Of a stretch of 53,441 nucleotides of DNA, positions 4,171 to 22,820 are shown one piece after another. The stretch spans positions 1 to 53,441 of the forward strand of contig JAIEQF010000040.1 of NCBI GenBank assembly GCA_019747895.1, in the 5' to 3' direction. Origin of the DNA: Chthoniobacterales bacterium (lineage in GTDB: Bacteria; Verrucomicrobiota; Verrucomicrobiia; Chthoniobacterales; UBA6821). The notes beneath the pieces are model-generated. The model saw only the letters and a program-made list of their open reading frames with translations. It was not told the DNA's origin and ran no database searches. Each line of letters begins with the position of its first letter. Position 1 is the first letter of the stretch. The translations under genes were made by a program, and so were the position numbers.

Positions 4171-4413
4171 TTTTGTTAGGTGCACCACATCAGCCTGCAA
4201 GCAAGCAGTGCGCATGGCCCATCCGAAGATGACTAGCAACAAAAAAAAAGCGGCAAGCATAAAAAGCACACTCCAGGAAAAAGCCATTCCAGCCATGATT
4301 GTTTGTGGCTCCGAAATTCCTTTAGAAGCCGCCATCTTGCACCCTTCGCAGGCAAGAGCTTGAAAAGGAACAATAGCGCTCAAGACTAATAAAAACTTTA
4401 AAATATTTTTCAT
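4165..4413 (-). CDS. small membrane protein with CEGCK motif
   Basis: This 82-residue protein has a signal peptide (MKNILKFLLVLSAIVPFQALA), the mature start CEGCKMAAS just after the cleavage site, and one membrane helix (~42-65, SWSVLFMLAAFFLLLVIFGWA). The CxxC right after cleavage would face the periplasm and could bind copper or form a disulfide; this is inference. It overlaps the SCO gene by 4 bp, as in translational coupling, and sits between SCO and DUF420, which points to a role in CuA or CuB assembly. I do not know a name for it. Confidence 0.75.
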   Translation of the reverse strand: MKNILKFLLVLSAIVPFQALACEGCKMAASKGISEPQTIMAGMAFSWSVLFMLAAFFLLLVIFGWAMRTACLQADVVHLTKK

Positions 4414-5045
4414 GGCTGAGAAGGAGTTGCGGGATGCCTCACAAGGCTTCCGATATCGATCAAAATTTTTTGTACGACTTCGGGATCATTGACATCGTGA
4501 TAGCTGCGAATCATTCCCGTTTGATCGACGATCATAAAACGAGTCGAATGATTGGGCATCGCGCCTGGCTCACTGACCAGAGCCTGCTTCATTCCTTGTT
4601 GCGTAAAAGTAGTGATCTTGTCGAGTGGTCCCGTCACAAAATACCATTGCGATGGATCTGCTTGGATATTGTTGGCGTATTGCGCCAAGACGGCAGGCGT
4701 GTCATAGACCGGATCGACGCTAACAGAAACCAATTTAACATCTCGAAGTTTCGCGACCTTGGAAGACAGCTCTATCATGCGTGACGTCATGATCGGACAA
4801 GGTCCTGAACAGCGAGTAAAAATAAAATCAACAACCCAAACTTTTCCGAAGAGATCGGCCTTCGTTAATGTTTTTCCTTCTTGCGTCGTAAAACTAAAAT
4901 CAGGAACCTCTGCAATCGGCGGCTCTGTCATCGTGCTCCGTTGCTCCGATTTGCGGAACATGAACACAGCTCCTCCAAGGAGCAACACGACTAGGAGAAA
5001 AATAACAACCCACCAAGAGAGTGAGAGGGATTTAGAAGAATTCAC
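4410..5045 (-). CDS. SCO1/SenC family copper chaperone
   Basis: The protein is a membrane-anchored thioredoxin-fold chaperone for copper delivery to the CuA site of cytochrome oxidase. One N-terminal helix (WWVVIFLLVVLLLGGAVF) is followed by the SCO core: PDFSFTTQEGKTLT, VVDFIFTRCSGPCPIM with the CxxxC copper ligands, SVSVDPVYDTP, and the conserved His in MPNHSTRF. The longest frame begins at an ATG at 5090 inside the end of coxC. The GTG at 5045, 8 bp after the coxC stop, avoids that overlap and gives a normal 211-residue protein, so I prefer it. It lies directly downstream of coxC. Confidence 0.88.
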   Translation of the reverse strand: MNSSKSLSLSWWVVIFLLVVLLLGGAVFMFRKSEQRSTMTEPPIAEVPDFSFTTQEGKTLTKADLFGKVWVVDFIFTRCSGPCPIMTSRMIELSSKVAKLRDVKLVSVSVDPVYDTPAVLAQYANNIQADPSQWYFVTGPLDKITTFTQQGMKQALVSEPGAMPNHSTRFMIVDQTGMIRSYHDVNDPEVVQKILIDIGSLVRHPATPSQP

Positions 5046-5053
5046 GTTCAAAA

Positions 5054-5683
5054 TTAAACGATATACAAAATGGTATAAAGAAACACCCAAACCACATCGA
5101 CAAAATGCCAGTAGAGCCCCACATTATCTAGTGCGACATGATGATGCTGAGTGAATGATTTGAAAAAACATTGCCGCAAAAAGCACCACACCATCAGGAG
5201 CACTCCAATACAAACGTGAACTCCGTGAAACCCTGTCAAAACAAAAAAGGAAGACCCGTAAACTCCTCCAAGATGGAACCAGAGACCTTCATGATAGAGG
5301 TGAGTCCATTCATATGTTTGACCAGCAATGAATGTAGAACCTAGCAAAATAGTTAGGAACAACCAACGTCGTCCGGTCTTTCCGCTTTTGACGGAGACTT
5401 CAACCATGTGAAAAGCAAGACTGCTAGCAATCAGGATCAGGGTGTTGCATCCAGTGAGAAATTTTGGAAGCGCTGGCAATCCTGGTGAAGGCGGCCACTG
5501 AGCACATCCGAGGCGCAAAACAATGTACCCGCTAATGAGGCCGGCAAAAAGCATCGCCTCAGAAATAAGAAAAACAATCATCCCGAATTTACAGACATGC
5601 GGCGGAGCACCGTGGTGAGCCGGCTCAGAATGCGAAGGGACTACGGAATCAGAAAAAGAAGTAGGGAATGCTGCTGAAGACAT
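5054..5683 (-). CDS. coxC: cytochrome c oxidase subunit III
   Basis: This 209-residue subunit of the aa3/caa3-type oxidase has the five-helix core typical of short bacterial forms. Visible family features are FGMIVFLISEAMLFAGLISG near the start, FHMVEVSV, GQTYEWTHL, the SSFFVLTGFHGVHVCIGV helix, and the final YWHFVDVVWVFLY. It is the first gene after the plus-strand hip/MITE island, 1.7 kb from the tiny ORF behind ctaB, so the oxidase genes seem to have been split. SCO follows directly. Confidence 0.95.
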   Translation of the reverse strand: MSSAAFPTSFSDSVVPSHSEPAHHGAPPHVCKFGMIVFLISEAMLFAGLISGYIVLRLGCAQWPPSPGLPALPKFLTGCNTLILIASSLAFHMVEVSVKSGKTGRRWLFLTILLGSTFIAGQTYEWTHLYHEGLWFHLGGVYGSSFFVLTGFHGVHVCIGVLLMVWCFLRQCFFKSFTQHHHVALDNVGLYWHFVDVVWVFLYTILYIV

Positions 5684-7395: not shown

Positions 7396-7509
7396 CTACG
7401 CCAACGCAGGCCCACGGAGGAGCATCAGCCAAATGACGAGGGCACAAAGGGAGATGGCGAAAACAAAAATCGCAAGACCAATCGCAAGACGAGTTTTTTT
7501 GGGCATCAT
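7396..7509 (-). CDS. tiny single-helix membrane protein behind ctaB
   Basis: This 37-residue frame begins MMPKKTRLAIG and continues with one hydrophobic helix (LAIFVFAISLCALVIWLMLL), ending RGPALA then TAG. Its ATG (7509) overlaps the TGA of ctaB in an ATGA junction, the arrangement of translational coupling. A positively charged N-terminus before a single helix suggests an N-in membrane peptide. Small subunits of this form are common in oxidase operons (CcoQ or CoxIV-like), but I cannot assign it to a family. It is the last gene before the hip/MITE island. Confidence 0.55.
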   Translation of the reverse strand: MMPKKTRLAIGLAIFVFAISLCALVIWLMLLRGPALA

Positions 7510-8438
7510 GGAGAAGAAGGTTGAACGCTGCTGCGCAGCTGTTGAAACGTTGAAGCGTTGAAGGGTTTAAGCGTTGAACTTTTGAAAATCACCAGTGCTC
7601 CCAAGATCAGCGGCAAATAAATAATCGATGTAAAAAAAAGTACGCGTGCATTTTTTCGAGTACGATCTCTCACAAAAAAGAAAGCCGTCAGCGCAAAAAG
7701 AATCCCTAAGATCAATGCCGCTACAAAATAAAATGGCGAGGCCATCCCTAACAGCGTAGGAAGAAGCGAGACAGCAAGCAGGCCCAATGCATAGAGCAGA
7801 GCTTGACGCGACGTCATGAAACCTTGCGGATCATCCACGCTGAGCATGCGAAAACCAGCCGAGGCATAGTCTTCTCGATAAAGCCAAGCAATTGCGAGAA
7901 AATGAGGCATCTGCCAAAACCAGAGAATCAAAAAAAGAACCGCTCCCCCAACCCCAATATCATTTGTTGCCCCTGCCCAACCGATCAACGGAGGCAAGGC
8001 GCCGGGAATAGCTCCCAGCAAGGTATTCAGGGTCGTTCGCCGCTTCATGGGCGTGTAGACCAAGACATAAATGATGATAGTTGCCGCTGCCAAAAGCGCA
8101 GCAAGCACGTTCACGAAAAAAAACAAAAGTGCCGTTCCAACAAAGCAACATAGCAGTCCAAAAAGAAGCGCATCCCGAGGATGCAATCTTTTTGCAGGAA
8201 GAGGACGATCTTCCGTCCGCTTCATTAAGGCGTCGAGAGCCCTTTCCCACCATTGATTCAGCGCTGAGGCACCACAGGCAGAAAGAGCGGTTCCAAACAA
8301 AGTCGCACCCAACAAAAGATAATCAAGCGGCCCATTCCATCCTAATAAAAATCCCACGAGCGTCGTGATAAGCACGAGCAAAGACAAGCGAGCCTTGATG
8401 AGCTCCATGAAGTCGTTCACTGAATTCGCTGTTTTCAA
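7506..8438 (-). CDS. ctaB: protoheme IX farnesyltransferase
   Basis: This is the heme O synthase, an inner-membrane UbiA-family prenyltransferase that adds a farnesyl group to heme B. Typical features are KARLSLLVLITTLVGFLLG, the Asp-rich loop WERALDALMKRTEDRPLP, YTPMKRRTTLNTLLGAIPGA, and the second loop REDYASAGFRMLSV. About nine helices are expected. The longest frame starts at TTG (8438); an ATG at 8408 (MELIKARLS) is an alternative. The last ~24 residues (TLKPFNASTFQQLRSSVQPS) are encoded by a GTTGAA-type repeat array and are not part of the family. It lies 2 bp behind ctaA and supplies that enzyme's substrate. Confidence 0.93.
   Translation of the reverse strand: MKTANSVNDFMELIKARLSLLVLITTLVGFLLGWNGPLDYLLLGATLFGTALSACGASALNQWWERALDALMKRTEDRPLPAKRLHPRDALLFGLLCCFVGTALLFFFVNVLAALLAAATIIIYVLVYTPMKRRTTLNTLLGAIPGALPPLIGWAGATNDIGVGGAVLFLILWFWQMPHFLAIAWLYREDYASAGFRMLSVDDPQGFMTSRQALLYALGLLAVSLLPTLLGMASPFYFVAALILGILFALTAFFFVRDRTRKNARVLFFTSIIYLPLILGALVIFKSSTLKPFNASTFQQLRSSVQPSSP
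7509..7580. repeat. GTTGAA-type tandem array inside the ctaB 3' end
   Basis: Units GTTGAACGCTGCTGCGCAGC, GTTGAAACGTTGAAGCGTTG and TTTAAGCGTTGAAC follow one another, with the small palindrome GCTGCGCAGC near the start. The array is translated as the non-conserved C-terminus of CtaB. Confidence 0.6.
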
Positions 8439-8440
8439 AA

Positions 8441-9610
8441 TCAGCTTACGGTTGGGAGTGAGATAGGCTCGTCACCTTGTTCTTCATATTTTCCATCACT
8501 TTCATCGCTTCCATCCTCGTGAATTATTTGTTCTTCCATTTTATTCGCCACAAAAAGCCGGAAAGTTAGAAGCATAGCGCCTCCTAATAAGAGTGCTCCG
8601 AGTGCCATATGAGCGGTCGCCATGTCAGCCGCCTTGTTGGACCAGATCGTCCAAGCTCCCAGCGCAGCTTGCAGCACTAGCAAAATTCCCCAAATAAATG
8701 ACCAACGATGAACCCAATGTTTTTCAGGCAAAAGCTCTCGAGCTCGAATCATGAGCAAGAGTACGACTCCCATGAGCAGCAAAGCCCCACCGCGGTGAAT
8801 CAGCTGTAGCTCAATTTGTGTTGCTGTTGTCGGCATCATCGCTTGAGCCAAACGCGTCGCATTGATAGCTGCCAAGGCTTTTTCTGAAAGATCAGGAAGA
8901 ACCCTTCCGTAAGCCGTTGGGAAATCAGGAATCGCCAATCCCAAATGAGCATGACGCATCGTCGCTGCAATGATGAGTTGAAAATAAGTCAGCACTACGC
9001 CTGCGAGCCCGAGCCAGCGCAGCTTAGCAGCAGGAGCTTCTCCCGACCATGTTCCTGTGATAAAAGCACGACTCGTAGCCGCAGAAAAAATCAGCAAGAG
9101 AGCAAAAAAAGTTTGCGCTACAATCGCATGAAAAATTCCAAGTTCATCTTTGTAAAGCGTGACGCGAAGTCCGCCTAGCACTCCTTGCAAGATGACACCA
9201 ATCAGGAGTGCGAGCGCCAAGCGTCGCACCCAGCGCCGCTTTTCTAAAAAAAAAGTCATCACACTCAAGATCACTGTAAGGAGCCCAATCCCAGAGGCTA
9301 GCAGCCGATGCGTATGTTCATAAAAAACTCCCCCGACCCATCGCGAGAGCGGAAAAAGAAACATGTTGTAGCCATAAGTCGTCGGCCAATCGGGAACCGA
9401 CATTCCAACGCCTTTGGAGGTCACTAGCCCGCCGCTACACAGAAGCACGAACGTCAGCACCGTCGTCAGCACCGCGAGAGCATGCAAAATGAGCAAAGAG
9501 GCTGTAGGCTGTAGACTGTAGGCTGAGCTATCGCGCTGCGATGGCAGTTGACAGTTGGCAGTTGGCAGTTGTCGGTTATGTTGAGCTCGTTGATCCATTA
9601 GAAAAGGCAA
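8441..9610 (-). CDS. ctaA: heme A synthase, COX15/CtaA type
   Basis: This membrane enzyme oxidises heme O to heme A for the oxidase. It shows the family's two-fold arrangement: GGLVTSKGVGMSVPDWPTTY with FYEHTHRLLAS in the first half, AHLGLAIPDFPTAYG with LIHRGGALL in the second, and further His in GIFHAIVAQ and MATAHMALG. About eight helices are expected. Residues ~13-30 (RQLPTANCQLPSQ and on) and the acidic C-terminus are not conserved. The N-terminal piece is encoded by a CAGTTGGCAGTTG tandem array, so the true start may be further in. The order coxA-ctaA-ctaB is a common oxidase operon order. Confidence 0.92.
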   Translation of the reverse strand: MPFLMDQRAQHNRQLPTANCQLPSQRDSSAYSLQPTASLLILHALAVLTTVLTFVLLCSGGLVTSKGVGMSVPDWPTTYGYNMFLFPLSRWVGGVFYEHTHRLLASGIGLLTVILSVMTFFLEKRRWVRRLALALLIGVILQGVLGGLRVTLYKDELGIFHAIVAQTFFALLLIFSAATSRAFITGTWSGEAPAAKLRWLGLAGVVLTYFQLIIAATMRHAHLGLAIPDFPTAYGRVLPDLSEKALAAINATRLAQAMMPTTATQIELQLIHRGGALLLMGVVLLLMIRARELLPEKHWVHRWSFIWGILLVLQAALGAWTIWSNKAADMATAHMALGALLLGGAMLLTFRLFVANKMEEQIIHEDGSDESDGKYEEQGDEPISLPTVS

Positions 9611-9717
9611 TACTATTTTAGAGCGGCAGAATAAAGAAGGTTTTCCTTTTCATAATACGGGTCACGTTAAACTTTCTGATAACTGTCAACTGTCAACTGC
9701 CGTTGCACAGCAACGGC
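9498..9717. repeat. inverted array pair around the ctaA start
   Basis: The left array (9498-9578) has GGCTGTAGGCTGTAGACTG followed by CAGTTGACAGTTGGCAGTTG. The right array (9678-9717) has AACTGTCAACTGTCAACTG, then the palindrome GCCGTTGCACAGCAACGGC. The two arms are complementary in type and bracket the coxA-ctaA junction. The right array ends at the stop codon of coxA; the left one is translated as part of CtaA. Confidence 0.65.
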
Positions 9718-11501
9718 TAGTGCAGCTCAATCCGCGCTGTATCCGGCGCCTTCACATTTTGAGGAAGATAATCTTCTTCCATTCCAGGAACACTATACTC
9801 GTAAGGACCATTGTAAACAGTAGGAGTAACTGGAAAATTTCCATGGAGTGTTACTGGTGACGGGAGCGTCCACTCGAGCGTTGTAGAACGCCAAGGATTA
9901 TTGGGAGCCTTTGGACCGTAGCGAAGACTGTAAACAAGATTAACGAAAAAGACGAGCGTCGAAAGCCCTAAACCAAAAGCTCCAATCGTGGAAATCACAT
10001 TGAGTGGTTGCAACTGACGTAAGTGTTCATAAATTGTCGGATCAGAAATACGACGCATCATACCTCCGAGCCCCAAATTATGCATCGGGAAAAAGGTGAT
10101 GTTAAAAAACACTAATGTTAGGAAAAAGTGAACCATGCCTAGTGTTGGATTCATCATCCGACCAAACATTTTTGGAAACCAAAAATAAATGGCAGCAAAA
10201 ATAGAAAAGATACTTCCTCCAAAAAGAACGTAGTGGAAGTGAGCAACAATAAAATAGGTGTGGTGCACAAAAAGATCGACCGGTGTTGATGCCATGAAAA
10301 TACCACTGAGGCCTCCGATCACAAACATCATCACAAACGCCAATGCAAAGCACATTGGAACAGTATACTCAATCGAACCTTTCCAGATTGTGCCAAGCCA
10401 GTTGAATGTCTTAATCGCAGAAGGAACAGCGATCACCATTGTTGAAACACCAAAAGCTGCACTCAATGTCAGATTCATACCGCTGACAAACATATGATGT
10501 CCCCAGACAATAAATCCAAGAAAGCCGATTGCCCCCATCGCATAGACCATTGCTTTATAACCAAAGATTGGCTTCCGAGCAAAGACAGGCATAATCTCTG
10601 AAACAAGCCCCATGGCTGGCAAGATCATGATGTAAACTTCAGGATGTCCAAAAAACCAAAAGAGATGCTGCCAGAGCAAAGGCTGCCCATTGCCAGCAGG
10701 TCTGAAAAAGCTTGTTCCAAAATTGAGATCAAACGCGAGCATCGCTGCTCCTGCTGAAAGCACAGGAACCGCAAAAATGAGAAGGATCGAAGTAATGAAG
10801 AGCGACCAAACAGTCAAGGGTAAACGGAACATCGTCATTCCTGGCGCCCTCATTGTAATAACAGTCGTGATATAATTTGTAGCTCCAGCAATAGAAGCGA
10901 GTCCATTGACAAAAATACCAGCACCCCAAAGCGTCTGCCCAAGTTGAGTTTGATTAAAAGCTGCTACCGAACTCAAAGGTGCATAGGCCGTCCATCCCGT
11001 TCCCGGTGCTCCACCTGGAGCAAAAAAAGCACCAAGCATGATGATTCCAGAAAGAAGATAGAGCCAGTAGCTCAATTCATTCAAGAGAGGAAAGGCCATG
11101 TCGCCAGCTCCAATTTTTAAAGGAATAAGATAATTACCAAATGCTCCAATAATGATAGGCATCACAAAAAAGAAAACCATGATCGTGGCATGCATGGTCA
11201 CGAGCATATTAAAACCCCCAGGAATAATCGCTCCTTCATCAGTCACAAGGGTTGAAGGAAAAAATTTTCCAATCAAAGGAATCGCATGGTTAGGAAATCC
11301 CAATTGAAAACGAATAGCCAATGCTAATGCTCCACCAATCAAAAGAAAAAAGAAAGATGTCCAGAAATACTGGAGCCCAATCATCTTGTGATCGTAGGTC
11401 CAGAGATATTTCATGATGCCACGAGAAGCGTGTTCATCATGATGATGAGCAGCCTTAGCATGCACTGTTTCAGAGGAAGTGGAGGTCATTACAGCGTTCA
11501 T
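9717..11501 (-). CDS. coxA: cytochrome c oxidase subunit I, A1 type
   Basis: This is the catalytic subunit of the proton-pumping oxidase, with low-spin heme and the heme a3/CuB centre. Twelve helices fit the length of 594. Visible motifs are TMHATIMVFFFVMP, NYLIPLKIGAGDMAFP of the D-channel region, WFFGHPEVYIMILPAMG near residue 285 (the Glu of A1-type enzymes and the CuB His with its Tyr), WGHHMF with two CuB ligands, the K-channel helix MVIAVPSAIKTFNWL, and HHTYFIVAHFHYVL with the heme ligands. All ligands expected for an active enzyme are present, in contrast to the CcoN-like protein encoded upstream. It lies downstream of coxB. Confidence 0.97.
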   Translation of the reverse strand: MNAVMTSTSSETVHAKAAHHHDEHASRGIMKYLWTYDHKMIGLQYFWTSFFFLLIGGALALAIRFQLGFPNHAIPLIGKFFPSTLVTDEGAIIPGGFNMLVTMHATIMVFFFVMPIIIGAFGNYLIPLKIGAGDMAFPLLNELSYWLYLLSGIIMLGAFFAPGGAPGTGWTAYAPLSSVAAFNQTQLGQTLWGAGIFVNGLASIAGATNYITTVITMRAPGMTMFRLPLTVWSLFITSILLIFAVPVLSAGAAMLAFDLNFGTSFFRPAGNGQPLLWQHLFWFFGHPEVYIMILPAMGLVSEIMPVFARKPIFGYKAMVYAMGAIGFLGFIVWGHHMFVSGMNLTLSAAFGVSTMVIAVPSAIKTFNWLGTIWKGSIEYTVPMCFALAFVMMFVIGGLSGIFMASTPVDLFVHHTYFIVAHFHYVLFGGSIFSIFAAIYFWFPKMFGRMMNPTLGMVHFFLTLVFFNITFFPMHNLGLGGMMRRISDPTIYEHLRQLQPLNVISTIGAFGLGLSTLVFFVNLVYSLRYGPKAPNNPWRSTTLEWTLPSPVTLHGNFPVTPTVYNGPYEYSVPGMEEDYLPQNVKAPDTARIELH

Positions 11502-11523: not shown

Positions 11524-12378
11524 TTAGTTTTTTGCAGCGAGCTCAATGAAGATATTCGGCTTTGTAACTTTCTCGGCATACCATTTATCATACTCTTCTT
11601 GGCTGACAACCCGAATAGGAGCCTTCATGTTATAGTGGCCTTTACCGCAAAGCTGACTGCAAGCGAGTTGAAAATTCCCTTCACGAAGTGTTTTAAACCA
11701 AACCCATCCGATGGTTCTACCTGGCACCGCATCTTGATAAATACGAAACTCAGGAACATAAAAAGAGTGAATGACATCACGCGAGCGAAGCAAGATGTGA
11801 ACAGGTCTTCCAACAGGGATAACTAATTCCGTTGTAGAAAAATCTTCCTTAGCGCGAGGATCCGTCATGTCGACACCAAATTTATTGATTGGTGTAATAT
11901 CACGCACATCCGACCGAGCTAACGTGCCGCTGACGCCAGGATAACGAAAATCCCATGCAAACTGATAAGCTGTGATTTCAACAGTTAGAGCATCCTGAGG
12001 AGCCGGCTGATGAATTTCATACCACATCCGATTTCCATAAATCGCTAATCCCAAGAAAATCAATGTGGGCAATGTTGTCCAAATAATCTCCAGCGTATTG
12101 TTTCCATGGCTGTAGTGAGCCTTCACACCGGGCTTGCGCCGATACTTAATTAAATAATAAATAAAAACAGTTTGAACGAGAAAGAAAACAGTTGTTGTTA
12201 ACCAAAAAATAAAAGTTAAGAGACGATCTGTTTCAATTCCATTGAGCGTCGCATTACGAGGTGTCCAATAAATATTACCGGAACGAGCCTCAGCCATAAC
12301 GCTAACCGAAAAAAGAAAAAATGTCGCAACAAGAGCGATGCATTTTTGAAGAGGAAAATTTTTAATTGAAAACTTCAT
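11524..12378 (-). CDS. coxB: cytochrome c oxidase subunit II
   Basis: This subunit carries the CuA centre that takes electrons from cytochrome c. It has a signal peptide (to ~AEA at residue 31), two helices (~52-78 and ~97-115) and a periplasmic cupredoxin domain. CuA ligands are visible: His204 in VIHSFYVPEFR, Cys240 and Cys244 in CSQLCGKGHYNM, His248 and Met251. ITAYQFAWDFRYPG is the usual Trp-rich segment. A fused C-terminal heme c domain is absent; separate cytochromes are encoded just upstream. It sits 2 bp behind the CcoP-like cytochrome gene. Confidence 0.96.
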   Translation of the reverse strand: MKFSIKNFPLQKCIALVATFFLFSVSVMAEARSGNIYWTPRNATLNGIETDRLLTFIFWLTTTVFFLVQTVFIYYLIKYRRKPGVKAHYSHGNNTLEIIWTTLPTLIFLGLAIYGNRMWYEIHQPAPQDALTVEITAYQFAWDFRYPGVSGTLARSDVRDITPINKFGVDMTDPRAKEDFSTTELVIPVGRPVHILLRSRDVIHSFYVPEFRIYQDAVPGRTIGWVWFKTLREGNFQLACSQLCGKGHYNMKAPIRVVSQEEYDKWYAEKVTKPNIFIELAAKN

Positions 12379-12380
12379 GA

Positions 12381-13094
12381 CTATTTTTTAGCGGGAGGAG
12401 TTGCAGGGGCAGCGGAACCAGAGCACATTTCTTTAGGAATAGCTTTCATTTCAGCCAGATTCCAAGCCTCAGTACGAGGTTTGGTGTCGGCACGAACTTT
12501 CGTCACAAATTCTGTTGTGATAGGAGGCGCATTATTACCCCATTCCGAACGAACGTACGTTAACACAGCAGCAATTTGTTGATCAGACAATTGACTCCAA
12601 GCAGCCATAGCATTGTTATAGGGGAGGCCTTTCACCGTTATAGGACCTTGCATTCCATACAAGACTTGCTTCACAAGATGATTGTCACCATGCCAGTCTT
12701 GAGAAAGAACCCACTCTGTTCCGACCAGTGGAGGAAATTGTCCAGGAACGCCAAGCCCTGTTGCTTGGTGACAAATCACACAGGTCTGAGTAAAAACTTT
12801 TTTCCCAAGAACTTTCATATCAACCGCAGCTGCTGCGCCACCACTCCCACCGCCACTCCAAGAAACCACCGAGGCATCAAAGACATTGGCCTTAAAACCA
12901 CCACTATTGTAAGCCAAGTACATTCCAGCCCAGAAAAACAGGAACATTGAAAAAGCCATCAACCAAAGCGGCAACGGCCTTAAAAAACCGTTCCTATCAG
13001 CATTGTGGAGCGATGCCGGAGCATGATTGATCTCAACAAGATCGCGTGCAAGCTGCAAGTCGTCGGAAGAATGATGGATATTAGATGGATTCAC
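12381..13094 (-). CDS. membrane-anchored monoheme cytochrome c, CcoP-like
   Basis: An N-terminal segment (LRPLPLWLMAFSMFLFFWAG, residues ~38-57) gives one membrane helix and resembles the CcoP anchor. A Gly/Ala-rich linker (~80-92) follows. The heme c domain has TCVICHQATGLGVPGQFPPL with Cys105, Cys108 and His109, a likely Met ligand in NNAMAAW and the closing helix AAVLTYVRSEWG. CcoP normally has two hemes; this one has a single CxxCH. The start is GTG (13094). Together with the two genes before it, it forms a CcoN-O-P-like trio in front of coxB; it may carry electrons between ActE and CoxB (inference). Confidence 0.85.
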   Translation of the reverse strand: MNPSNIHHSSDDLQLARDLVEINHAPASLHNADRNGFLRPLPLWLMAFSMFLFFWAGMYLAYNSGGFKANVFDASVVSWSGGGSGGAAAAVDMKVLGKKVFTQTCVICHQATGLGVPGQFPPLVGTEWVLSQDWHGDNHLVKQVLYGMQGPITVKGLPYNNAMAAWSQLSDQQIAAVLTYVRSEWGNNAPPITTEFVTKVRADTKPRTEAWNLAEMKAIPKEMCSGSAAPATPPAKK

Positions 13095-13109
13095 AAAAAC
13101 AGAATGTGT

Positions 13110-13733
13110 TTATTTTTCAGGAACAGGAGGAACTTCTGGCAAGGTATAATCTTGTTTCCGAGAGAGCAAGTAAGCGACGAGGTCTTTGGCCTCTTCCGTC
13201 GGAACAACCTCGTAACCTTCTTTGGGAGCATGAGGTCCTGTTAAAGAGACTGCTTCTTCGGAAGGTTGACCTTCAATTTTTTGCATTTTGAAAAGATATC
13301 GATAAGCAGGCATGTTCGATCCTGGAACCACGGTCGTTGATTCATAAAGGTGACGATAATACCAAGCAGGATCTGTAAAACGAACTCCCACATTGCTCAA
13401 ATCAGGACCGATTCGAGATGTTCCAAGAAAAGCAACTTGATCTCTTAGATAATCACGTGCCACCGAGGGGCGCTTACCCCAGTTACGATCAATGTCAGAG
13501 CTCGTCACACTAGGTTGACGAACTTGTTGGCTATGGCAAGTCATGCATCCCTCAGCCGCATAAACCTTAGCTCCGCGAATCGCGCTCCCACTTTGCAGTG
13601 GCGGCAAACTGCCATCGCTCTCAACCTGCGGAGCGAGACGCCCTAATTCCAAATAGGAATAAGCAACGAATCCAAGCCATCCCGCAAAAAAGAGAAGGGC
13701 AATAGTAATGAAGAGTGGTCTCAAACGATTCAT
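13110..13733 (-). CDS. CcoO/FixO-like monoheme cytochrome c
   Basis: The protein resembles the second subunit of cbb3 oxidases. It has an N-terminal helix (residues ~8-28), then GAKVYAAEGCMTCHSQQVRQ with the heme c motif at 63-67, DYLRDQVAFLGTSRIGPDL, and SNMPAYRYLF with the likely axial Met. Both cytochrome features of CcoO are intact. It overlaps the CcoN-like gene by 4 bp, as ccoN-ccoO pairs often do. Its partner has lost its cofactors, so this heme probably serves electron transfer in the alternative complex III/caa3 assembly rather than a cbb3 oxidase. Confidence 0.87.
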   Translation of the reverse strand: MNRLRPLFITIALLFFAGWLGFVAYSYLELGRLAPQVESDGSLPPLQSGSAIRGAKVYAAEGCMTCHSQQVRQPSVTSSDIDRNWGKRPSVARDYLRDQVAFLGTSRIGPDLSNVGVRFTDPAWYYRHLYESTTVVPGSNMPAYRYLFKMQKIEGQPSEEAVSLTGPHAPKEGYEVVPTEEAKDLVAYLLSRKQDYTLPEVPPVPEK

Positions 13734-15208
13734 GAAACGGAAGCAAGTGAATTAAAAGAACAAGCTGATACTTTTTGATCAGGATGAGTAGCATGAAAAA
13801 GCATGTTACCAAAAAGCCTGACAAAAGAAACGTAAGAAAGGAGTAACAATATCCAAGCGATTACATTCAGCCAACGCCATGGTGCTGCAAAAGAGAGGAC
13901 ATTCACCCATGTGATAGCAGCATCATCCAAGGCCAGGCCTTCAAGAAGTCCTCCCAGCGTCATCGAAACGACCATTAGTGAAAGACCAACAACCGCAAGC
14001 CAAAAATGGCATCGAATCGAACAGGAGCACAACCATGAAAAACCAAACAACCGCGGCGCAATGTAATAAATGCCAGCAAAGAATACCATGCTCACAGCTC
14101 CTAAGAGCGTGAGAATTATAATGCCATTGGAGTAATGCGTGAAATGGAGAATCCCATTCCAAGTTGGAATAGCAAAGGCCAAATTCAGCAGCGTCGCCAC
14201 AAGATAAGCAATGATTCCAAAAGCAATAAAGCGAAGAGCCGGACTTTCTTTGAGCGCAGCGACTTGTCCCTGCAGCATCTTGGCATAATTCAAAATTACC
14301 GCTGCGACAGGAATCATCATCAACATTGTTGCCACCACGCTGGCACTGACCATCCAAACAGGAATAGGTCCGCCGAGAAAGAGAGTCATTCCAGACCAGC
14401 CCGCCAAGAGCAAGAGCGAGAAGAATCCAAGCACAGCCAAATAGTAACTGTAAATAGGAGCTCCCGTGATTTTAGGAATTAAATAGTAGATGATCCCAAG
14501 CGCTAACGGAATAAGGAAGAGTCCAAAAATATTCGCGCTATACCAAGCGATGATCGGTCCTTGAGCAGAAGCCTGTATCGAACCCCATGTCAAAAACATA
14601 TTTGCGGTGGCATAGAGCCAAGGAAAAGCACATAGTCCTAACAAAAAGTACCATTGCGTTATATAAATAGAACGTGGCTGACGTGCTGAAAAAAGCAATA
14701 CTATCCAAACACCCATCAGCAAAAAGGCGATAAAGAGAGGGACGGAAGCCCAATTAGGATATTCGAGCCAAGGAATGGAGGTTCCATAACCACAAAGGAC
14801 GCCCAATGATCCGAGAAAAACTCCGGTGTTCCAAAAAAACGTAGCAGCGACTAGCAATTTAGAACAACGCAGAGGTCTTCCGCAAAGTCGGGCTACCATC
14901 CAGAGGCTGATACCAAGGCCGGCTGGGATCGCCCACCCATAAAGCAGTGCATCGAGAGCAACCGGAAGAAGTCTTCCATAAGATAAAAAATTGATGCCAT
15001 CTAAAAAGCAAGGCACCACCAACTTCAAAGAGGTCATCGTGCAAAGAATGGAGCCGAACAAAAGCCAAAAAAGAGCCGTCCTAAAAAAGAGCAAAACTGG
15101 AAAACGAAGCGAGGCATCAATCTCAGCACGAGTCGTCGCATGCAATGGAGCCGGCTCGCTAAAATTAGTGGCTGCTTGAACTTGAGAGAGAGAGGATTCG
15201 TGACTCAT
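13730..15208 (-). CDS. CcoN-like heme-copper oxidase fold lacking all cofactor ligands
   Basis: This 492-residue, about twelve-helix protein aligns along its length with CcoN (cbb3 subunit I), for example in IIYYLIPKITGAPIYSYYL and IYYIAPRLFG. The ligands are gone. Where CcoN has GRLRPLH, this has YGRLLPVA (Ala84). The CuB helix WYGHN reads WYSAN (Ala225). The GPHHL pair is GMTLF (Thr275, Leu276). The GHVH heme ligands read GIII (Ile363, Ile365). It therefore should bind neither heme nor CuB. It is well conserved in fold and sits in operon with a heme-bearing CcoO-like gene, so it looks retained rather than decaying. A structural or quinone-site role is a guess. Confidence 0.8.
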   Translation of the reverse strand: MSHESSLSQVQAATNFSEPAPLHATTRAEIDASLRFPVLLFFRTALFWLLFGSILCTMTSLKLVVPCFLDGINFLSYGRLLPVALDALLYGWAIPAGLGISLWMVARLCGRPLRCSKLLVAATFFWNTGVFLGSLGVLCGYGTSIPWLEYPNWASVPLFIAFLLMGVWIVLLFSARQPRSIYITQWYFLLGLCAFPWLYATANMFLTWGSIQASAQGPIIAWYSANIFGLFLIPLALGIIYYLIPKITGAPIYSYYLAVLGFFSLLLLAGWSGMTLFLGGPIPVWMVSASVVATMLMMIPVAAVILNYAKMLQGQVAALKESPALRFIAFGIIAYLVATLLNLAFAIPTWNGILHFTHYSNGIIILTLLGAVSMVFFAGIYYIAPRLFGFSWLCSCSIRCHFWLAVVGLSLMVVSMTLGGLLEGLALDDAAITWVNVLSFAAPWRWLNVIAWILLLLSYVSFVRLFGNMLFHATHPDQKVSACSFNSLASVS

Positions 15209-15214
15209 GAGTGA

Positions 15215-15634
15215 TTACTTGGCTGACGTGGAGGAAGCACTAGAAATAGGTTCCGGCGCTGGAACCGGCATACCAGCTGGTTTAGGAACAAGGTCAATGG
15301 GTGCAATCGGATAAGTTGCATGGGGCTTCCACTTAGAATCATTGAGAGAAACCATTTCTAATTCCATTGCTCGCGCTATCGGAATAAAAACAATCCCTTT
15401 AGCTTGATCGACCCATCCATAGTTATTCAGACGCTTGTCATTGGCCTCTTGAAGTTCTTTCAAGTTTTTAGTGCGCAAGATGGCTCGCTCAGCATCTTCA
15501 TCGAGAGGCCGAGGATTCCAAAGCACCAAAACAATCACGGCTGCAAGAAAAAGCACAAACATTCCCAAAGCTGTCCAAAGCCGCGACCAAGGAAAGCAAC
15601 AAGATGATGATGGATGAGAAGAAGAGCAGGTCAT
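15215..15634 (-). CDS. small membrane-anchored protein of act-cox clusters
   Basis: This 139-residue protein has a Cys/Ser-rich start, one helix (residues ~20-42, ALGMFVLFLAAVIVLVLW) and a periplasmic part with NNYGWVDQAKGIVFIPIARA followed by MELEMV. That YGWVD...IPI..AME signature is one I associate with a small conserved protein found next to alternative complex III and oxidase genes; I know no assigned function. The C-terminus is Pro/Ala/Ser-rich and probably disordered. It lies between actF (5 bp) and the CcoN-like gene (6 bp) in the same operon. Confidence 0.7.
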   Translation of the reverse strand: MTCSSSHPSSSCCFPWSRLWTALGMFVLFLAAVIVLVLWNPRPLDEDAERAILRTKNLKELQEANDKRLNNYGWVDQAKGIVFIPIARAMELEMVSLNDSKWKPHATYPIAPIDLVPKPAGMPVPAPEPISSASSTSAK

Positions 15635-15639
15635 GAGTT

Positions 15640-16842
15640 TTAGACAGCAATGTTAATCGAATCTTTCAAGCGTGGATCACGCAACGGCCACAGAGGAACA
15701 TCTCCCAAACGTTTGAGAAAAACAGCCGCTAGCGTGCATCCAATGGCAAGAAGAGCCAGGATATCAAAAATACTTGGTGCAAATCCAGCAGGATGAATCA
15801 TCGGCAAGACGACAATATAGATATCGAGCATGTGCATGAGCAAAATCCAAAAAGCAATACCACAAAGATAAGCAGGCCGACGTTTTGGATTACGGAAAAG
15901 TAAAAGCAAAAAGGGAATTAAAAAATGTCCTGCGACTAAAATGATATTGAGCGTGCACCAACTCTCCGTGTTGCGCCGCAAAAAATAAATCGTCTCTTCA
16001 GGAATGTTGGCATACCAAATCAACATATATTGATCAAATCCGATATACGCCCAAAAAACGGTAAAGGCTGTCATCAATTGTCCCATAAGAGAATAGTGAC
16101 GTTCGGAAACAATCCCTTGAAGATAACCTGCTGAGCGAAGCGCTGTCACAATGAGGAGAATAACGCAAAGTGAACTCAACGCAGAACCAGCAAAAATATA
16201 GACACCCCACATCGTCGAGACCCATTTAAAATCAAGCCCCATGAGCCAATCAACCGCAGCAAAAGTAAGGCAGACTGCGAAGAAGGGAAGACTTGCAAAA
16301 GTTATTTTCCGGGCCATCACGGTATATTTTGGATCGCCCGTTTTATCCTGAGCCACCGAAAGCTTACGGAGCCACAAAGCGGCCGTGCTAAAAAAGAGAA
16401 AATAGAAGGCCGCTCTCATCCAGAAAAAAGGAAGGTTGAGATAAGGTGCTTTTTCTATCAGCTGAACATCATGGCCATGAGGAATCGTCATCCATGTCCA
16501 AAGTCGTGGCGCTACAAAAATCAGAGGAACAAAAAGAAGGGCCATCACCGGGAAGAGACTTGCAACATTCTCCATCTGGCGGCGAACTCCGACGCTCCAT
16601 TCTACGTCGATACCATGATGCACAAGGATCCAAAAGAGGCTCCCAATCACGATTGTCATAAAATAGAAAAAGGCAAACAACCATGAAAAAGCAAACTGCT
16701 TGGGATGGTGCATCCCAAGAAGAAAAGAAACCACCAATGATACGATCGCAACGGAAACAAGGCCCATAAAGCGTCCCCCGACATGCTTGTAGTCGAAGTA
16801 TTCAGGGCTTTTTGCTGAAGAAGAAGTGGTAGGTTGGCTCAT
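15640..16842 (-). CDS. actF: alternative complex III subunit ActF
   Basis: This is a polytopic membrane subunit, about ten helices in 400 residues, homologous to ActC but shorter. Recognisable stretches are GSLFWILVHHGIDVEWSVGV near residue 75, FAAVDWLMGLDFKWVSTMWG, AYIGFDQYMLIWYANIPEET and NPKRRPAYLCGIAFW. In known complexes ActF packs against ActC and takes part in quinol handling and proton paths. It follows actE by 14 bp, so the actABCDEF order is complete. The start region (MSQPTTSSSAKSPEYFDYKH) is normal for the family. Confidence 0.92.
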   Translation of the reverse strand: MSQPTTSSSAKSPEYFDYKHVGGRFMGLVSVAIVSLVVSFLLGMHHPKQFAFSWLFAFFYFMTIVIGSLFWILVHHGIDVEWSVGVRRQMENVASLFPVMALLFVPLIFVAPRLWTWMTIPHGHDVQLIEKAPYLNLPFFWMRAAFYFLFFSTAALWLRKLSVAQDKTGDPKYTVMARKITFASLPFFAVCLTFAAVDWLMGLDFKWVSTMWGVYIFAGSALSSLCVILLIVTALRSAGYLQGIVSERHYSLMGQLMTAFTVFWAYIGFDQYMLIWYANIPEETIYFLRRNTESWCTLNIILVAGHFLIPFLLLLFRNPKRRPAYLCGIAFWILLMHMLDIYIVVLPMIHPAGFAPSIFDILALLAIGCTLAAVFLKRLGDVPLWPLRDPRLKDSINIAV

Positions 16843-16856
16843 GAAAAAAGGAAAAT

Positions 16857-17561
16857 TTATTTTGTTGCAGGAACAGGAGTGAGTTTGCTGAGTTCATCAG
16901 CAGGAACATCTCCCATCGTTGCATTCTGTGAGCGTTGGAGCGCGCGCAAATAACAGATGATTGCCCAACGATCGGGAACTTGAATATTGGAACCATAACC
17001 CATCATCGTATTTTTTCCCCAAGTGATGGTATTAAAAATTTCTCCGTCGGCCATATCACGAATCCGTTGCTGATGCTGATTAGCAATACTATTGAGGCCA
17101 TACTTGGAAGCAATTCCGTTTCCTTGACCCGTCGCACCATGACAGACCGCGCAGTTAATGTTATACCGCTCCTGCCCTCGTTGCATAATGGCAGGTGTCA
17201 CTTCAAATGGAATACCTGTTCCCCACTGCGTTCCCATTCTACCCGTCTCGCGATAAGTTAGAGATCCAGAAAATTGAATGTTTTTGTAAGGACCAGCAAG
17301 GTCCGTCGATGGATTATTGCTGTCAACAGACTTTCCTTGAGGAGCAGAATAGCCCATCGGCACTGTTCCTGTAGCATGTACCCGGCCTGATCGACCATCG
17401 GCATAAAAGGAGCTCTCCGTTTGCGCTTTGTATTTTGCCTGGCGCACCATATCAGGAAAAAGCTCTAGCGGTGGACGTTTTGACTTCCAGCCACGCAACC
17501 CTGTCATCGAGACAAGAAGCAAGAGGAGTAAGGTAAATCCAATGAAAAAATAACGTAACAT
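16857..17561 (-). CDS. actE: alternative complex III monoheme cytochrome ActE
   Basis: This is a periplasmic cytochrome c subunit held by an N-terminal signal anchor (MLRYFFIGFTLLLLLLVSM). It has the ActE-type region MVRQAKYKAQTESSFYADG and PMGYSAPQGK, then RYNINCAVCHGATGQGNGIA with the heme c motif and DMADGEIFNTITWGKNTMMG with the likely axial Met. The end AIICYLRALQRSQNA closes the cytochrome fold. It probably passes electrons from the pentaheme ActA toward the oxidase. The gene is 9 bp behind actD. Confidence 0.92.
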   Translation of the reverse strand: MLRYFFIGFTLLLLLLVSMTGLRGWKSKRPPLELFPDMVRQAKYKAQTESSFYADGRSGRVHATGTVPMGYSAPQGKSVDSNNPSTDLAGPYKNIQFSGSLTYRETGRMGTQWGTGIPFEVTPAIMQRGQERYNINCAVCHGATGQGNGIASKYGLNSIANQHQQRIRDMADGEIFNTITWGKNTMMGYGSNIQVPDRWAIICYLRALQRSQNATMGDVPADELSKLTPVPATK

Positions 17562-17570
17562 GATTTGAAA

Positions 17571-18167
17571 TTATTCGTCGTGATAAATGACAGTGATATG
17601 ACTACCGCCAAGAGATTGTAAAAATTGGCGTGTCTCTTCCAAAGAAAATTTTTCATCCGTTGCCTCTATTGCAATATAAAATTTATCTTCGGTCACTTTT
17701 TTAAAACGATCCCAATTAAAAAGCGGATGATTCCAACGCGGAAGGCCATTGAGAGCCAGCATTCCAAAAGTCGCTGTGAGTGCTGAAAAAAGAATCGTCA
17801 GCTCAAACATGATCGGGAAGAAAGCAGGAATCGTCATCAAGTTTGTCGGCTTTGCATCCACAATTAATGGATAGAGAAAACTAGAAGCGCCAAATTCCAT
17901 AAAGACAGCCGTGCTAAAACCAGTCAGACCACCAATAAAGACCAGGGCGCTCAACCAGGACTTAGGAAGTCCCATGGCCGTGTCCATTCCATGAATGGGA
18001 AAAGGAGAAAAAGTATCCCAACGTTTGTAGCCAGCATCACGAACTTTCTCAGCGGCATGATAAAGATCACGGGCGCTATCGAATTCTACTCCAACTGCAT
18101 AAATAGGAGCTTTCGAAGAACCTGTTGTTGTTGTCGGTGTCGTCATCTTAGTGGTGCTCCTCTCCAT
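17571..18167 (-). CDS. actD: alternative complex III subunit ActD, DUF3341
   Basis: This 198-residue membrane protein has a small soluble N-terminal domain ([20 protein letters not shown]) and two helices (~70-92 and ~118-140), the DUF3341 layout. [20 protein letters not shown] and [15 protein letters not shown] are family hallmarks. Its first codons overlap the end of actC by 20 bp; an internal ATG seven codons in (MTTPTT) would leave almost no overlap and may be the real start. It has no cofactor motif; in known structures it is a structural subunit. Confidence 0.9.
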
Positions 18168-19548
18168 AATGTGGATTAGCTTCGGGCAAGACAGCTTTTA
18201 CTTCAAACATACAAATCATCGGCAAGAAACGAACAAAAAGCAGGAAGAGTGTTGTGAAAAGACCAAAGGTTCCTATAAAAGTTAAAATATCGACAATAGT
18301 CGGATGAAAGAGTCCCCAAGAGGATGGTAAAAAGTCGCGAGCCAACGTTGTTGCAATAATAACAAAACGCTCAAACCACATTCCTGCATTGACAAACATA
18401 CACACAATAAAAACGGCATAGACATTGGTCCGACACCACTTGAACCAAAAAACTTGAGGTGAAACAACGTTGCAGAACATCATGGAAGCATAGGCCCACC
18501 AATAAGGTCCAAAGGCGCGGTACCAGAAAGCAGCACGCTCGTATGGATTTGCTCCATACCAGGCAATAAAAAGTTCCATCAGGTAGGCATAGCCAACAAT
18601 CGAACCGGTCAACAAAATTACTTTAGCCATTTTGTTAATGTGACCAGGAGTGATCATGTCGTGGAGCTGCGGATAAATAGCTCGCGCTGGAAGCATAATA
18701 GTTAAGACCATTGCAAATCCACCGAAAATCGCTCCTGCCACAAAGTAAGGAGGGAAGATCGTGGCATGCCAGCCCGGAATGACCGAGGTTGCAAAGTCAA
18801 AGGAAACGACACTATGAACGGAAAGCACCAACGGCGTAGAAAGACCTGCTAGCAAAATGTAAGCCATTTCGTAATGACGCCATTGACGATTGCCTCCACG
18901 CCAACCGAGTGCCATGACGCCATAAATAAATTTTTTAATTTTGGTAGTACAGCGATCTCGCACGGTTGCTAAATCAGGAATCAATCCGGTGTACCAGAAC
19001 AAGACGGAAACGGTAAAATAAGTCGAAACGGCAAAGACATCCCAGAGCAACGGACTGCGGAAGTTCTGCCAAATCGCATTTGAATTAGGAACAGGCGCCA
19101 AGAAATAAACTTTCCAAATGCGTCCTACGTGAAACATCGGATAGATACCGGCGCAGACGACCGCAAAAAGAGTCATCGCCTCGGCAGCTCGGTTAATCGA
19201 GGTCCTCCATTTTTGACGCGTGATAAAAAGAATGGCGGAAATCAACGTCCCTGCGTGCCCGATACCGATCCAGAAAACGAAGTTTGTAATATCCCAAGCC
19301 CAAAAAACAGGACTGTTATTTCCCCACACACCAACACCCGTTGCTACCAAATAAATCAGCATCAGCGGTGTCAATAATGCAATAGAACTCGTGATCGCAA
19401 TCGAAACGAACCACCAACGAGGCGTTTTCGATTCGACAATCGTGCTCACATAGCTACTGATCCAGCCCATCGTCCGCTTGTTGAGGACAAGTGGAGGACG
19501 AGTGATGGCTTCACTATTGAGAGTTGAAGGGTTGAGAGAAGAGTCCAT
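18148..19548 (-). CDS. actC: alternative complex III subunit ActC, NrfD-like
   Basis: This 466-residue protein is a NrfD/PsrC-type subunit with about ten helices that bears the quinol site. Family stretches include [71 protein letters not shown]-like text and [20 protein letters not shown]. The His and Asp residues in the GIGHAG and SFDF segments are typical of the quinol region. Residues ~3-12 ([10 protein letters not shown]) are encoded by a GAGAGTTGAAGGGTTGAG repeat stretch, so the first residues may not be native. It starts 2 bp after actB. Confidence 0.93.
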
Positions 19549-19550
19549 AC

Positions 19551-22500
19551 CTATGAAGAAACTGAAACCGATGATTGTTGTGATGCTTTCTTTGCTTCAA
19601 CTCCAGCTTCTGCCTTTGGCTGCTGGGGAGCAACCACACCGTGACTATCAAAATGAGTTGGTCCTACGTCGGAATGCTCTGAGGCCGCAGACGCATGATG
19701 TGCTCCATGATGAGGCACCCCATTAGCAAGACCGACATGCTGGGCTCCAGGCATATTGAGGTTTGGATTTTTGATACGAGCAAGATAAGTAACACGCGGT
19801 TTCGTGTTGAGATACTTCAACATCGTGTAATCACGAGCGCTCGCCTTACGTCGTGAAACCTCACTATTCGGATCAGCGATGTTTCCAAAAACAATCGACT
19901 CTGAAGGACAAGCTTGTTGGCACGCTGTTTTAAACGGAGCCACAGCGACCTGATGAGAATCGCTATCCCCTGCTTTGACCAGCCGTCCAATCTTAGCCTC
20001 TTCGATGCGTTGAATACAGAAGGTGCATTTTTCCATGACACCACGCATCCGAACCGTAACGTTAGGATTCTTCGACATCTTGAGACTATCGGCCATGCCT
20101 TTCGGTGCCAATGGTCCGTAATAAAGCTCATCGAGCGGGCGTTGGTTGTAATCAAAGAAATTAAAACGACGAACTTTCCAAGGACAGTTGTTCGCACAAT
20201 AACGCGTTCCAATGCAACGGTTGTAAGCCATCAAATTCAATCCATCTTCGCTATGCACCGTGGCATTAACAGGACAAACCGTCTCGCAAGGAGCATTTTC
20301 ACAATGCTGACAAAGGATCGCCTGCGGCAACATTTCAGGTTCTTGTTCGGAACCATCAGGACTTGCAAACCAACGATCGATCCGAATCCAAGCCATATCA
20401 CGCCCGCGACGGACCTGATCTTTTCCAACAACAGGAACGTTGTTCTCCGCCTGGCAAGCCAAGAGACAAGCGTTGCATCCGATGCAAGTATTCAAATCGA
20501 TTGACATTCCCCACTGCTCTTGCGCTGTGAAAGGAGGACGGTTGTAGAGACTGATGTTGGGAGGAATGTGAGCATCCATTCCCATCGTCTGGGCAAAAGA
20601 AGGATCTTCTTGATAGCGCTCGACAGTTCCTTCACGGACGAGGTCACGCCCTTCCATGTTGCGATGCTCTTGCGTTTGCGCAAAATCATACTTTTTGCCA
20701 CGGAGTGGTTCTATCGAAATACCTTGAACATATCCCAGACTCCTATTCCTTCGCAGCGGATAAACATTAAATCCAACATGATCGATGACGTGCGAAAGCC
20801 CACCCCTCCCATATCCTAGGGCCGCACTCACAGATCCATCAGCATGACCTGGTGCTGCAAGAACAGCAATGTTCACACTACGAGTTCCATCGTTGAGGGA
20901 AACCATATCTCCGTCAGCAAGGCCGAGCCGCTTTGCGTCAGCAGGACTCATCAAGAGTGCATTATCCCAAGTCAATTTAGTGACAAAATCTGGAGTCTCT
21001 TGCAACCAAGCATTGCCGCTGTAGCGACCATCGTAGACGCTAGAACTAGGAAGAAAGGCTAACTCAAATCCACCAGGTGAAGCATCAGCCATTTCGGCTA
21101 CCACAGCACTCTGCGCTGCAGCCGCATTCCAAGAAGGTTTGACAACAAGAGCTGCAGAATTTTCTAAGAACCCGTTGTGCAGATATTGATTCCAAGCAAC
21201 GTCAGATGTGTCTTTAGAAAATGTATTGAATGTCTCACGAATCAGCGCTGGACCTTCAGGAGCAGGCTTGCCTTGAAGCGCATTGAGCACTTCGATCTCA
21301 GTGAGTCCATTCCAAAGTGGAAGCACCATCGGCTGGATCGTGCAGAGCGTTCCATCAAAACTCCGAGTATCGCCCCATGATTCAAGGTAGTGAGCAGCTG
21401 GAACAACCCAGTGACAGACCTTACTCGTCTCATCTTCGTTGAGCGTAAGATGAAGCGAGTCAGGAACAGCAGCAAAGAGCTTCGCGAGCTCAACCTCTTG
21501 AGACGCTGTATACACAGGATTGGTTTGAAAAAGAAACAGTTGCTTGATGGAATCCGTTTTTAATGCGGCTACAACTTCTTCAAAAGAAGTTGGTTTTTTT
21601 CCTAGCGCTGCCACATCCATGGTTGCACCTAAATTTCCCAATGCTGCATTGATTCCAAAAACCAAAAGCTGCACCGCCTCTGATTGTCCAGGTCCTGCGA
21701 GAACCAGACTTTTTCCTTGCGCCGCCATCAAATCATCTGCGAGCGGCTTAATCCATGGGCTCCAGTCAGGAAGAGCTACAGCGGAATGGTTTTTTAAATA
21801 GGTCGATGCTAATGAGTCGAGAGAACTATTGTTTGTTTTTTTAGCAATTTGCTGCGCCAAGGCCGCCGCGAAAGCCCCAATCTGACTTGCTTTGACGCGC
21901 AAACGATGATCAGCCATTCCTCCTGTCAACGTGTAGCTACTCTCGACAGCGTAGAGGCGATTCATGCCCTGCTCTGGATTGCGACGCGTATAAAAATCAG
22001 CAGCAAAGCCGACACCACGTTCTACAGGATTGAGAAAATCGCTATCTAGGGCAACAAGCACATCTGCTTTTTTGAGATGATAGACAGGCCTCATTCCAGC
22101 TCCAAAAGCCACTTCACAAGCCTGATGCTCGTTTTCGCGCGAGAGTGCTTCATACTCCACCCACTTCATCTTTGGAAATTCTTTCATCAAGGCATCGCGC
22201 AAACGATTGCGCGTTGGAGAATGGGCGCTCTCGACGACAAAAACCAATCCCTCGCCTTGAGTGCTCAAAGCAGTCTGACGCAGTTGACTTAAATAAGAAT
22301 CTAACGCCGCACGCTTGACCTCTTTGCCATCGCGCTTGATCGCCTTCGCGCGATGAGGATCGTAGAGATCCAAAATGGAAGCTTGAGCAAAAGCATCTGT
22401 CGAACCGTTGCTGATCGGATGAAGCGGGTTGCCTTCCATCTTCGTCGGGCGACCTTCAAACGTTGTTGCAATCAGCGGAATACCACCAAGGGGCGTTGGC

Positions 22501-22820
22501 ATCGTTGTCGCGTAGTAAAGAAACTTTCCGGGAATAGCCCACTCCGCAGAACGCGTGAATGGAACGAGGTAGGCCTCAGGACGGCGACAAGCGGTGAGCC
22601 CAATGCCCGCAAGAGCAGCAGAAGCTCCGGTCAGTTTTAAGAAATTGCGGCGGGACATCCCATTGGTCGCAACATTCTCCTCTCCCTCACGGCAATCAAG
22701 GCCAGGAGCAAACTCACGTCCGAGATCTTCGTTAAATGCAGCACTGTTCTCGTGCTCACCAGAAGTCCTCCAAAGCGTTGGCTGCTCGTCACGGGATGGA
22801 TGTTGAAAAATGCGTTTCAT
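19551..22820 (-). CDS. actB: alternative complex III subunit ActB, molybdopterin-enzyme-like fused to ferredoxin domain
   Basis: The 1089-residue protein has a twin-arginine signal placed unusually far in ([20 protein letters not shown], residues ~55-74), then a domain related to molybdopterin oxidoreductases (~80-740). In this family that domain lacks the cofactor. The C-terminal part (~775-1010) is a four-cluster ferredoxin domain: [51 protein letters not shown] and [10 protein letters not shown]. Both domains are fused, as in many ActB proteins. It would act on the periplasmic side between ActA and ActC. It follows actA by 12 bp. Confidence 0.94.

Follow-up and report, generated by a model that had tools for sequence, protein, structure and literature searches.

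A CcoN homologue without heme or copper ligands lies between alternative complex III and an aa3 oxidase in a Chthoniobacterales gene cluster

The window analysed here is one entire contig of 53,441 nucleotides (C44; JAIEQF010000040.1 of GenBank assembly GCA_019747895.1) from a Chthoniobacterales bacterium whose genome measures 2.06 Mb and is 96% complete. Its nearest named relatives are lake Verrucomicrobiota, including LacPavin MAG_45_28 (92% identity in N′, see below) and the Chthoniobacterales MAG Tobar2m-G38. The minus strand carries a run of respiratory genes in the order actA, actB, actC, actD, actE, actF, a small one-helix gene, N′, O′, P′, coxB, coxA, ctaA and ctaB, where N′, O′ and P′ denote a CcoN homologue and the two cytochromes c encoded after it. 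No intergenic gap from actA to coxA exceeds 22 bp, and the N′ and O′ genes overlap by 4 bp. The features are:

22833..23492 (−), ActA, pentaheme, with no sixth N-terminal heme (6f0k_A, 1e-69; five CXXCH)
19551..22820 (−), ActB (6lod_B, 8e-225)
18148..19548 (−), ActC, NrfD/DsrP-like
17571..18167 (−), ActD (position; conserved in the clusters of relatives)
16857..17561 (−), ActE, mono-heme cytochrome c (position and one CXXCH)
15640..16842 (−), ActF (6f0k_F, 8e-69)
15215..15634 (−), small protein of 139 amino acids with one transmembrane helix, between actF and N′
13730..15208 (−), N′, CcoN homologue (heme-copper oxidase subunit I), 492 amino acids, with no heme or CuB ligand and no cross-link Tyr
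13110..13733 (−), O′, CcoO/FixO-like mono-heme cytochrome c with one N-terminal transmembrane helix (PF02433, 5.7e-21; 8smr_F, 4e-16)
12381..13094 (−), P′, membrane-anchored mono-heme cytochrome c, c-552-like (PF00034, 1.5e-12; one CXXCH)
11524..12378 (−), CoxB, CuA subunit of the aa3 oxidase (TIGR02866 above cut-off; no CXXCH and no fused heme c)
9717..11501 (−), CoxA, A-type catalytic subunit with all ligands (HPEVY, HH, HFH)
7506..9610 (−), ctaA and ctaB, heme A and heme O synthesis for the aa3 oxidase (gene order the same in relatives)
4410..5683 (−), coxC (209 amino acids) and an SCO1-like gene

With a multiheme ActA, a fused ActB and NrfD-like ActC and ActF, the products of actA–actF constitute an alternative complex III (ACIII). 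The small protein that follows was considered as ActG and set aside, its best ActG match being non-significant (E 0.97). The oxidase encoded downstream is of the A type: CoxA has the ligands of heme a, heme a3 and CuB together with the HPEVY motif, and CoxB has the CuA motif. CoxC matches only positions 67–255 of COX3 and lacks the first two helices. A frame on the opposite strand (6133–6852, +), weakly matching the HipA-family protein YjjJ (5.6e-5), lies between ctaB and coxC and breaks the run of oxidase genes. Elsewhere in the window are a 185-amino acid protein with C-terminal Cys pairs (CCGG, CCQE, CCRE) and no NCBIfam match (2888–3445, −) and ResB- and CcsA-like cytochrome c maturation genes (37505–41067, +), the latter named by eye from their translations.

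The initial annotation had placed N′ ahead of a CcoO-like cytochrome with an intact heme c, a CcoP-like cytochrome with one heme and an active-looking coxBA, all within an ACIII–caa3 cluster. The first of these descriptions is borne out, O′ combining a FixO match and the N-terminal transmembrane helix with one CXXCH and a retained axial Met region, and so belonging with CcoO (FixO). P′ does have a single heme; its likeness to CcoP did not hold up. It matches Thermus cytochrome c-552 at 4e-23 vs 4e-4 for CcoP, reaches 30.1 of 179.95 bits with the ccoP family model, and has one heme where CcoP is usually di-heme, and a true CcoP is thus not supported. The active look of coxBA stands with the ligands of CoxA, but the caa3 label falls: as CoxB contains no CXXCH in the window or in 57 relatives, the oxidase is, to judge from its subunits, aa3 and not caa3.

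The coordinates, length and frame of N′ agree with those given earlier. The protein matches COX1 of Pfam over residues 38–451 (5e-48), P. stutzeri CcoN1 (3mk7_A) over nearly its full length (5e-35) and the NCBIfam ccoN model at 4e-39, yet with 134.7 of 583.15 bits it stays far below the equivalog cut-off of that model. Aligned with P. stutzeri CcoN, it has A84 for H60, A225 for H207, T275/L276 for H257/H258, I363 for H345, I365 for H347, and A269 for the cross-link Tyr251. Absent, then, are both low-spin heme b His and the high-spin heme b3 His (A84, I363, I365), as well as the three CuB His and the cross-link Tyr (A225, T275, L276, A269). None of the seven His of N′ (3, 23, 355, 358, 401, 472, 475) occupies a heme or CuB position. 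Misalignment, or a His shifted nearby, was ruled out, there being no His at or near the ligand positions in the relevant helices. The earlier claims that the 492-residue protein follows CcoN over its whole length and holds another residue at each His position are confirmed to the residue: the alignment finds no His at any ligand position, and the Tyr is gone as well.

A structural model of N′ computed from 37 homologues (pLDDT 88.9, pTM 0.90) superimposes on the solved CcoN 3mk7 with a Z-score of 48.6 and an rmsd of 1.7 Å over 444 residues, so that overall homology and a predicted 12-helix fold both place N′ with CcoN. With the modelled fold kept and every ligand replaced, the cofactors cannot bind in the known way. 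N′ might have stayed a cytochrome b by using other residues as heme ligands, a reading favoured by relatives in which at least one of the two low-spin heme b His survives (L050, L193–L203). In the window protein itself, however, no more than three His (358, 401, 472) fall within predicted helices, and non-polar residues occupy both low-spin ligand positions; we regard heme binding by it as very improbable.

About 150 distinct homologues were compared together with their surroundings. In the order to which the window belongs, 147 of 156 genomes match the family profile, a count that includes matches of canonical CcoN and CoxA. All six His and the Tyr are kept in 66 homologues, which comprise all Opitutales-type sequences but one, all those from Planctomycetota and many from Chthoniobacterales; in all three groups intact orthologues adjoin ACIII. 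Two homologues (L144, L073) miss one His, one of them also lacking the Tyr. In L073 (genome G093/G193), Tyr251 is replaced by Cys and H257 by Ser with the other ligands kept, and an A-type CtaD was not found in that genome. At the other end, 62 homologues are ligand-poor, keeping at most two ligands. Exactly the two low-spin heme b His are kept in 11 homologues, all from one family of the order (f9; L050, L193–L201, L203), in which N, A/S, Q, R and Y replace the CuB ligands, the Tyr and the high-spin His identically in 11/11 (pattern HN[AS]QRYH); by sequence, these proteins look like a stable cytochrome b stage. One genome (G131) has two copies, an intact N–O–P set with no ACIII nearby (L202, on C78) and a heme-b-only copy inside an ACIII cluster (L201, on C47).

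The replacements themselves are partly recurrent. At the position of CcoN H258, the second CuB His (L276 in the window), 48 of the 73 ligand-poor sequences, spread over several lineages, have Arg or Lys; at that of Tyr251, 64 of 73 have Gly or Ala. The fixed residues of f9 and the recurrent Arg/Lys hint at a further function. These patterns would suit an N′ whose emptied pockets bind a quinone, a lipid or an ion and give it a new catalytic or gating task in place of scaffolding, and so would the f9 family, in which N, Q, R and Y are fixed at four former ligand positions and both heme b His are kept. Against this, the window's own genus has small or non-polar, variable replacements, and most former ligand columns of the ligand-poor set are now of ordinary or high variability; a re-used site therefore strikes us as quite unlikely.

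The history of ligand loss was traced on two trees, that of N, with the ligand columns masked and canonical CcoN as the outgroup, and that of ActC, an independent gene of the same operon. The N tree, with intact sequences at its base, requires three or more losses and rejects a single ligand-poor group (p-AU 8.9e-5). On the ActC tree, the intact and ligand-poor labels need 8–11 changes and a single ligand-poor group is likewise rejected (p-AU 1.4e-6). A single ancestral loss is thus rejected on both, and the ligands appear to have been lost at least three times. Fast-evolving ligand-poor sequences may attract each other on the N tree, and the higher count on the ActC tree could partly reflect gene exchange within the cluster. 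The proposal that N′ is a former cbb3 oxidase is strongly supported: orthologues at the same operon position keep all ligands, and the CcoN-rooted tree has the intact state at its base. N′ would accordingly descend from an active cbb3-like oxidase coupled to ACIII.

Intact N and ActC both evolve more slowly than ligand-poor N′, as the branch lengths of the N tree also indicate for N, and in one assembly (L155; G051:C58, about 9.2–10.7 kb) the homologue is split into two overlapping frames by a frameshift, with the rest of the operon intact. Both observations are what one would expect of a dying gene en route to deletion, kept only by lying in an essential operon. The dN/dS of independent ligand-poor pairs, however, is 0.05–0.23 at dS 0.07–1.7 (0.108 at dS 0.41 for the window N′ vs L066), which is within or slightly above the values of ActE, ActF, O′ and P′ and above those of ActC and CoxA in the same pairs. 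Moreover, almost every one of some 60 ligand-poor homologues has an open frame, about 50 columns of the ligand-poor set remain at least 85% identical, most of them common to intact N, and the gene persists over whole families. Neutral decay is rejected by the dN/dS values and by retention, and a gene on its way out is extremely improbable. The selection invoked in the initial annotation is upheld by the same values and by retention across most of the order; of the frameshifted or neutrally evolving homologues it had contemplated, the one frameshift exists and neutrality does not. The pattern points to the loss of one function, with the rest of N′ still constrained.

Genomic linkage indicates the partner. 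Wherever 3 kb of sequence is available upstream, ligand-poor or heme-b-only loci have ActF as the immediate neighbour on that side (64/64); of 59 intact loci, 7 are solitary and have no ACIII beside them. Among loci with enough flank, coxA occurs within 6 kb downstream in 35 of 46 ligand-poor vs 8 of 44 intact loci. The other 11 of the 46 ligand-poor loci, about a quarter, have no coxA in this range, which makes ACIII, rather than the aa3 oxidase, the apparent constant partner of ligand-poor N′. At the level of genomes, an A-type CtaD is present in all 71 ligand-poor genomes examined and absent from 9 of 50 intact ones (Fisher p 2e-4, kinship ignored).

Rather than a permanent component of the functioning complex, N′ could be an assembly factor required for maturing or inserting O′ and P′ or CoxBA. 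It is encoded between actF and the cytochrome and oxidase genes, has no cofactor, and has ctaA and ctaB nearby. Constraint over its whole length and a CcoN-grade fold speak against this role, as do the intact orthologues, which have all features of an oxidase subunit, and the persistence of the ACIII linkage even where CoxBA is elsewhere. We judge an assembly factor unlikely.

The heme c sites of the two cytochromes have not shared the fate of the N′ ligands. CXXCH is kept in 158/158 O′ and in 171/172 P′, the exception being a frame that ends at a contig end. In F. johnsoniae, electrons are thought to reach aa3 through a sixth, mobile heme of ActA, and in R. marinus the bridge is an extra heme c on the oxidase, fused to CoxB (PMC8552683). 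ActA is pentaheme in 103/103 loci and CoxB lacks heme c in 57/57; with neither heme encoded, both known bridges between ACIII and the oxidase are missing here as far as the protein sequences tell.

The rest of the respiratory chain of this organism appears simple. In its own genome we found no COX1-family protein besides CoxA and N′, no bd oxidase and no cytochrome b of a bc complex, and the path from ACIII to aa3 is therefore likely its only aerobic route. Searches with two Pfam cytochrome c models, preferred as a raw CXXCH scan was too noisy, recovered O′, P′, ActE and one small frame as the class I cytochromes c of the genome, and no others. This last frame (L209, contig C49, 1434–1785) looks like a soluble cytochrome c (CAICHG), and its C-terminal part seems to continue in another frame; it is possibly broken or an assembly error, though it could be another electron carrier.

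ACIII beside a C-type oxidase is known from verrucomicrobial methanotrophs and Opitutaceae (PMC8498564, citing Refojo et al. 2010). Those clusters resemble the window in having ACIII genes directly beside a C-type oxidase, as do the intact orthologues from Opitutales and Planctomycetota; in them N has its full set of ligands and presumably acts as the terminal oxidase, whereas N′ of the window has none and is followed by coxBA. The cbb3 oxidase of P. stutzeri (3MK7) shares the fold of N′ (Z 48.6) and has in CcoO a homologue of O′, but N′ lacks its heme b, heme b3 and CuB ligands and cross-link Tyr, and P′ is c-552-like in place of a di-heme CcoP. We know of no CcoN-like subunit reported in the F. 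johnsoniae ACIII–aa3 supercomplex. That assembly (6BTM, EMD-7447) also pairs ACIII with an A-type oxidase and has a shortened subunit III, but its proposed bridge is the sixth ActA heme where the window has five. The ACIII–caa3 of R. marinus (6F0K) provides the closest solved ActA and ActF and likewise lacks a sixth ActA heme, but its oxidase has an additional heme c (PMC8552683), whereas the window has none in CoxB and has O′ and P′ as separate proteins. More generally, N′ resembles pseudoenzymes, in which catalytic residues are lost and fold and partners are kept under selection (PMC10211241). In open papers, subscription papers being outside the scope of the search, we found neither a pseudoenzyme in the heme-copper oxidase superfamily nor a description of a ligand-less CcoN in ACIII clusters.

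Combining homology, ligand loss, predicted fold, ancestry, repeated loss, selection, linkage, heme c retention and the missing bridges, we consider it reasonably probable that N′ is a pseudo-oxidase kept as a scaffold in the membrane, where it supports two cytochromes c connecting ACIII with aa3; the physical complex, the order of electron transfer and the scaffold function are what we infer. In this model, an ancestral ACIII–cbb3 unit would have acquired an A-type oxidase. Once the latter took over O2 reduction, CcoN catalysis would have become dispensable and all heme and copper sites would have been lost. What would have preserved N′ is its 12-helix body, which would keep the membrane-anchored O′ and P′ in place next to ACIII. 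Electrons leaving menaquinol would enter ActB/ActA (and ActE), move on to the O′ and P′ hemes c and from there reach the CuA site of CoxB, before CoxA hands them to O2, O′ and P′ being the obvious replacements for the missing sixth ActA heme or CoxB heme c.

The earlier suggestion, that the former oxidase became a structural or electron-wiring link between ACIII and the A1 oxidase, fits the ACIII linkage, the kept hemes c and the absent bridges. Taken as a whole, that reading is partly supported, its former oxidase and its selection by the tree, the intact orthologues, dN/dS and retention. Its "new role" may overstate the change, since the intact protein probably served already as a scaffold for O′ and P′ beside ACIII, and only catalysis was lost. 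The shortened subunit III of F. johnsoniae docks directly on ACIII (PMC8361435), and as CoxC of the window also lacks the first two helices, ACIII and aa3 might by analogy contact each other without N′.

A further-reaching reading, possible but rather doubtful, would make N′ and its kin a new class of obligatory non-catalytic ACIII-supercomplex subunit, a recurrently dismantled oxidase serving as an adaptor that delivers electrons to any A-type oxidase. One large family would have stopped at, or been re-tuned to, a stable heme-b-only stage (H N [A/S] Q R Y H), a membrane cytochrome b with a second electron-transfer job.

Few known enzymes are as constrained as the heme-copper oxidases, whose subunit I is normally recognised by its ligands. 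The natural series of intact, heme-b-only and empty forms described here offers a way to ask which tasks an oxidase body performs beyond catalysis, and wiring by O′ and P′ would be a concrete, testable answer to how electrons pass from ACIII to an oxidase without either known bridge heme. As a subunit I appears to have been stripped of all cofactors more than once and is still selected, annotation by family alone would mislead: it would call the ligand-poor genes cbb3 oxidase and credit these bacteria with a high-affinity oxidase that they lack.
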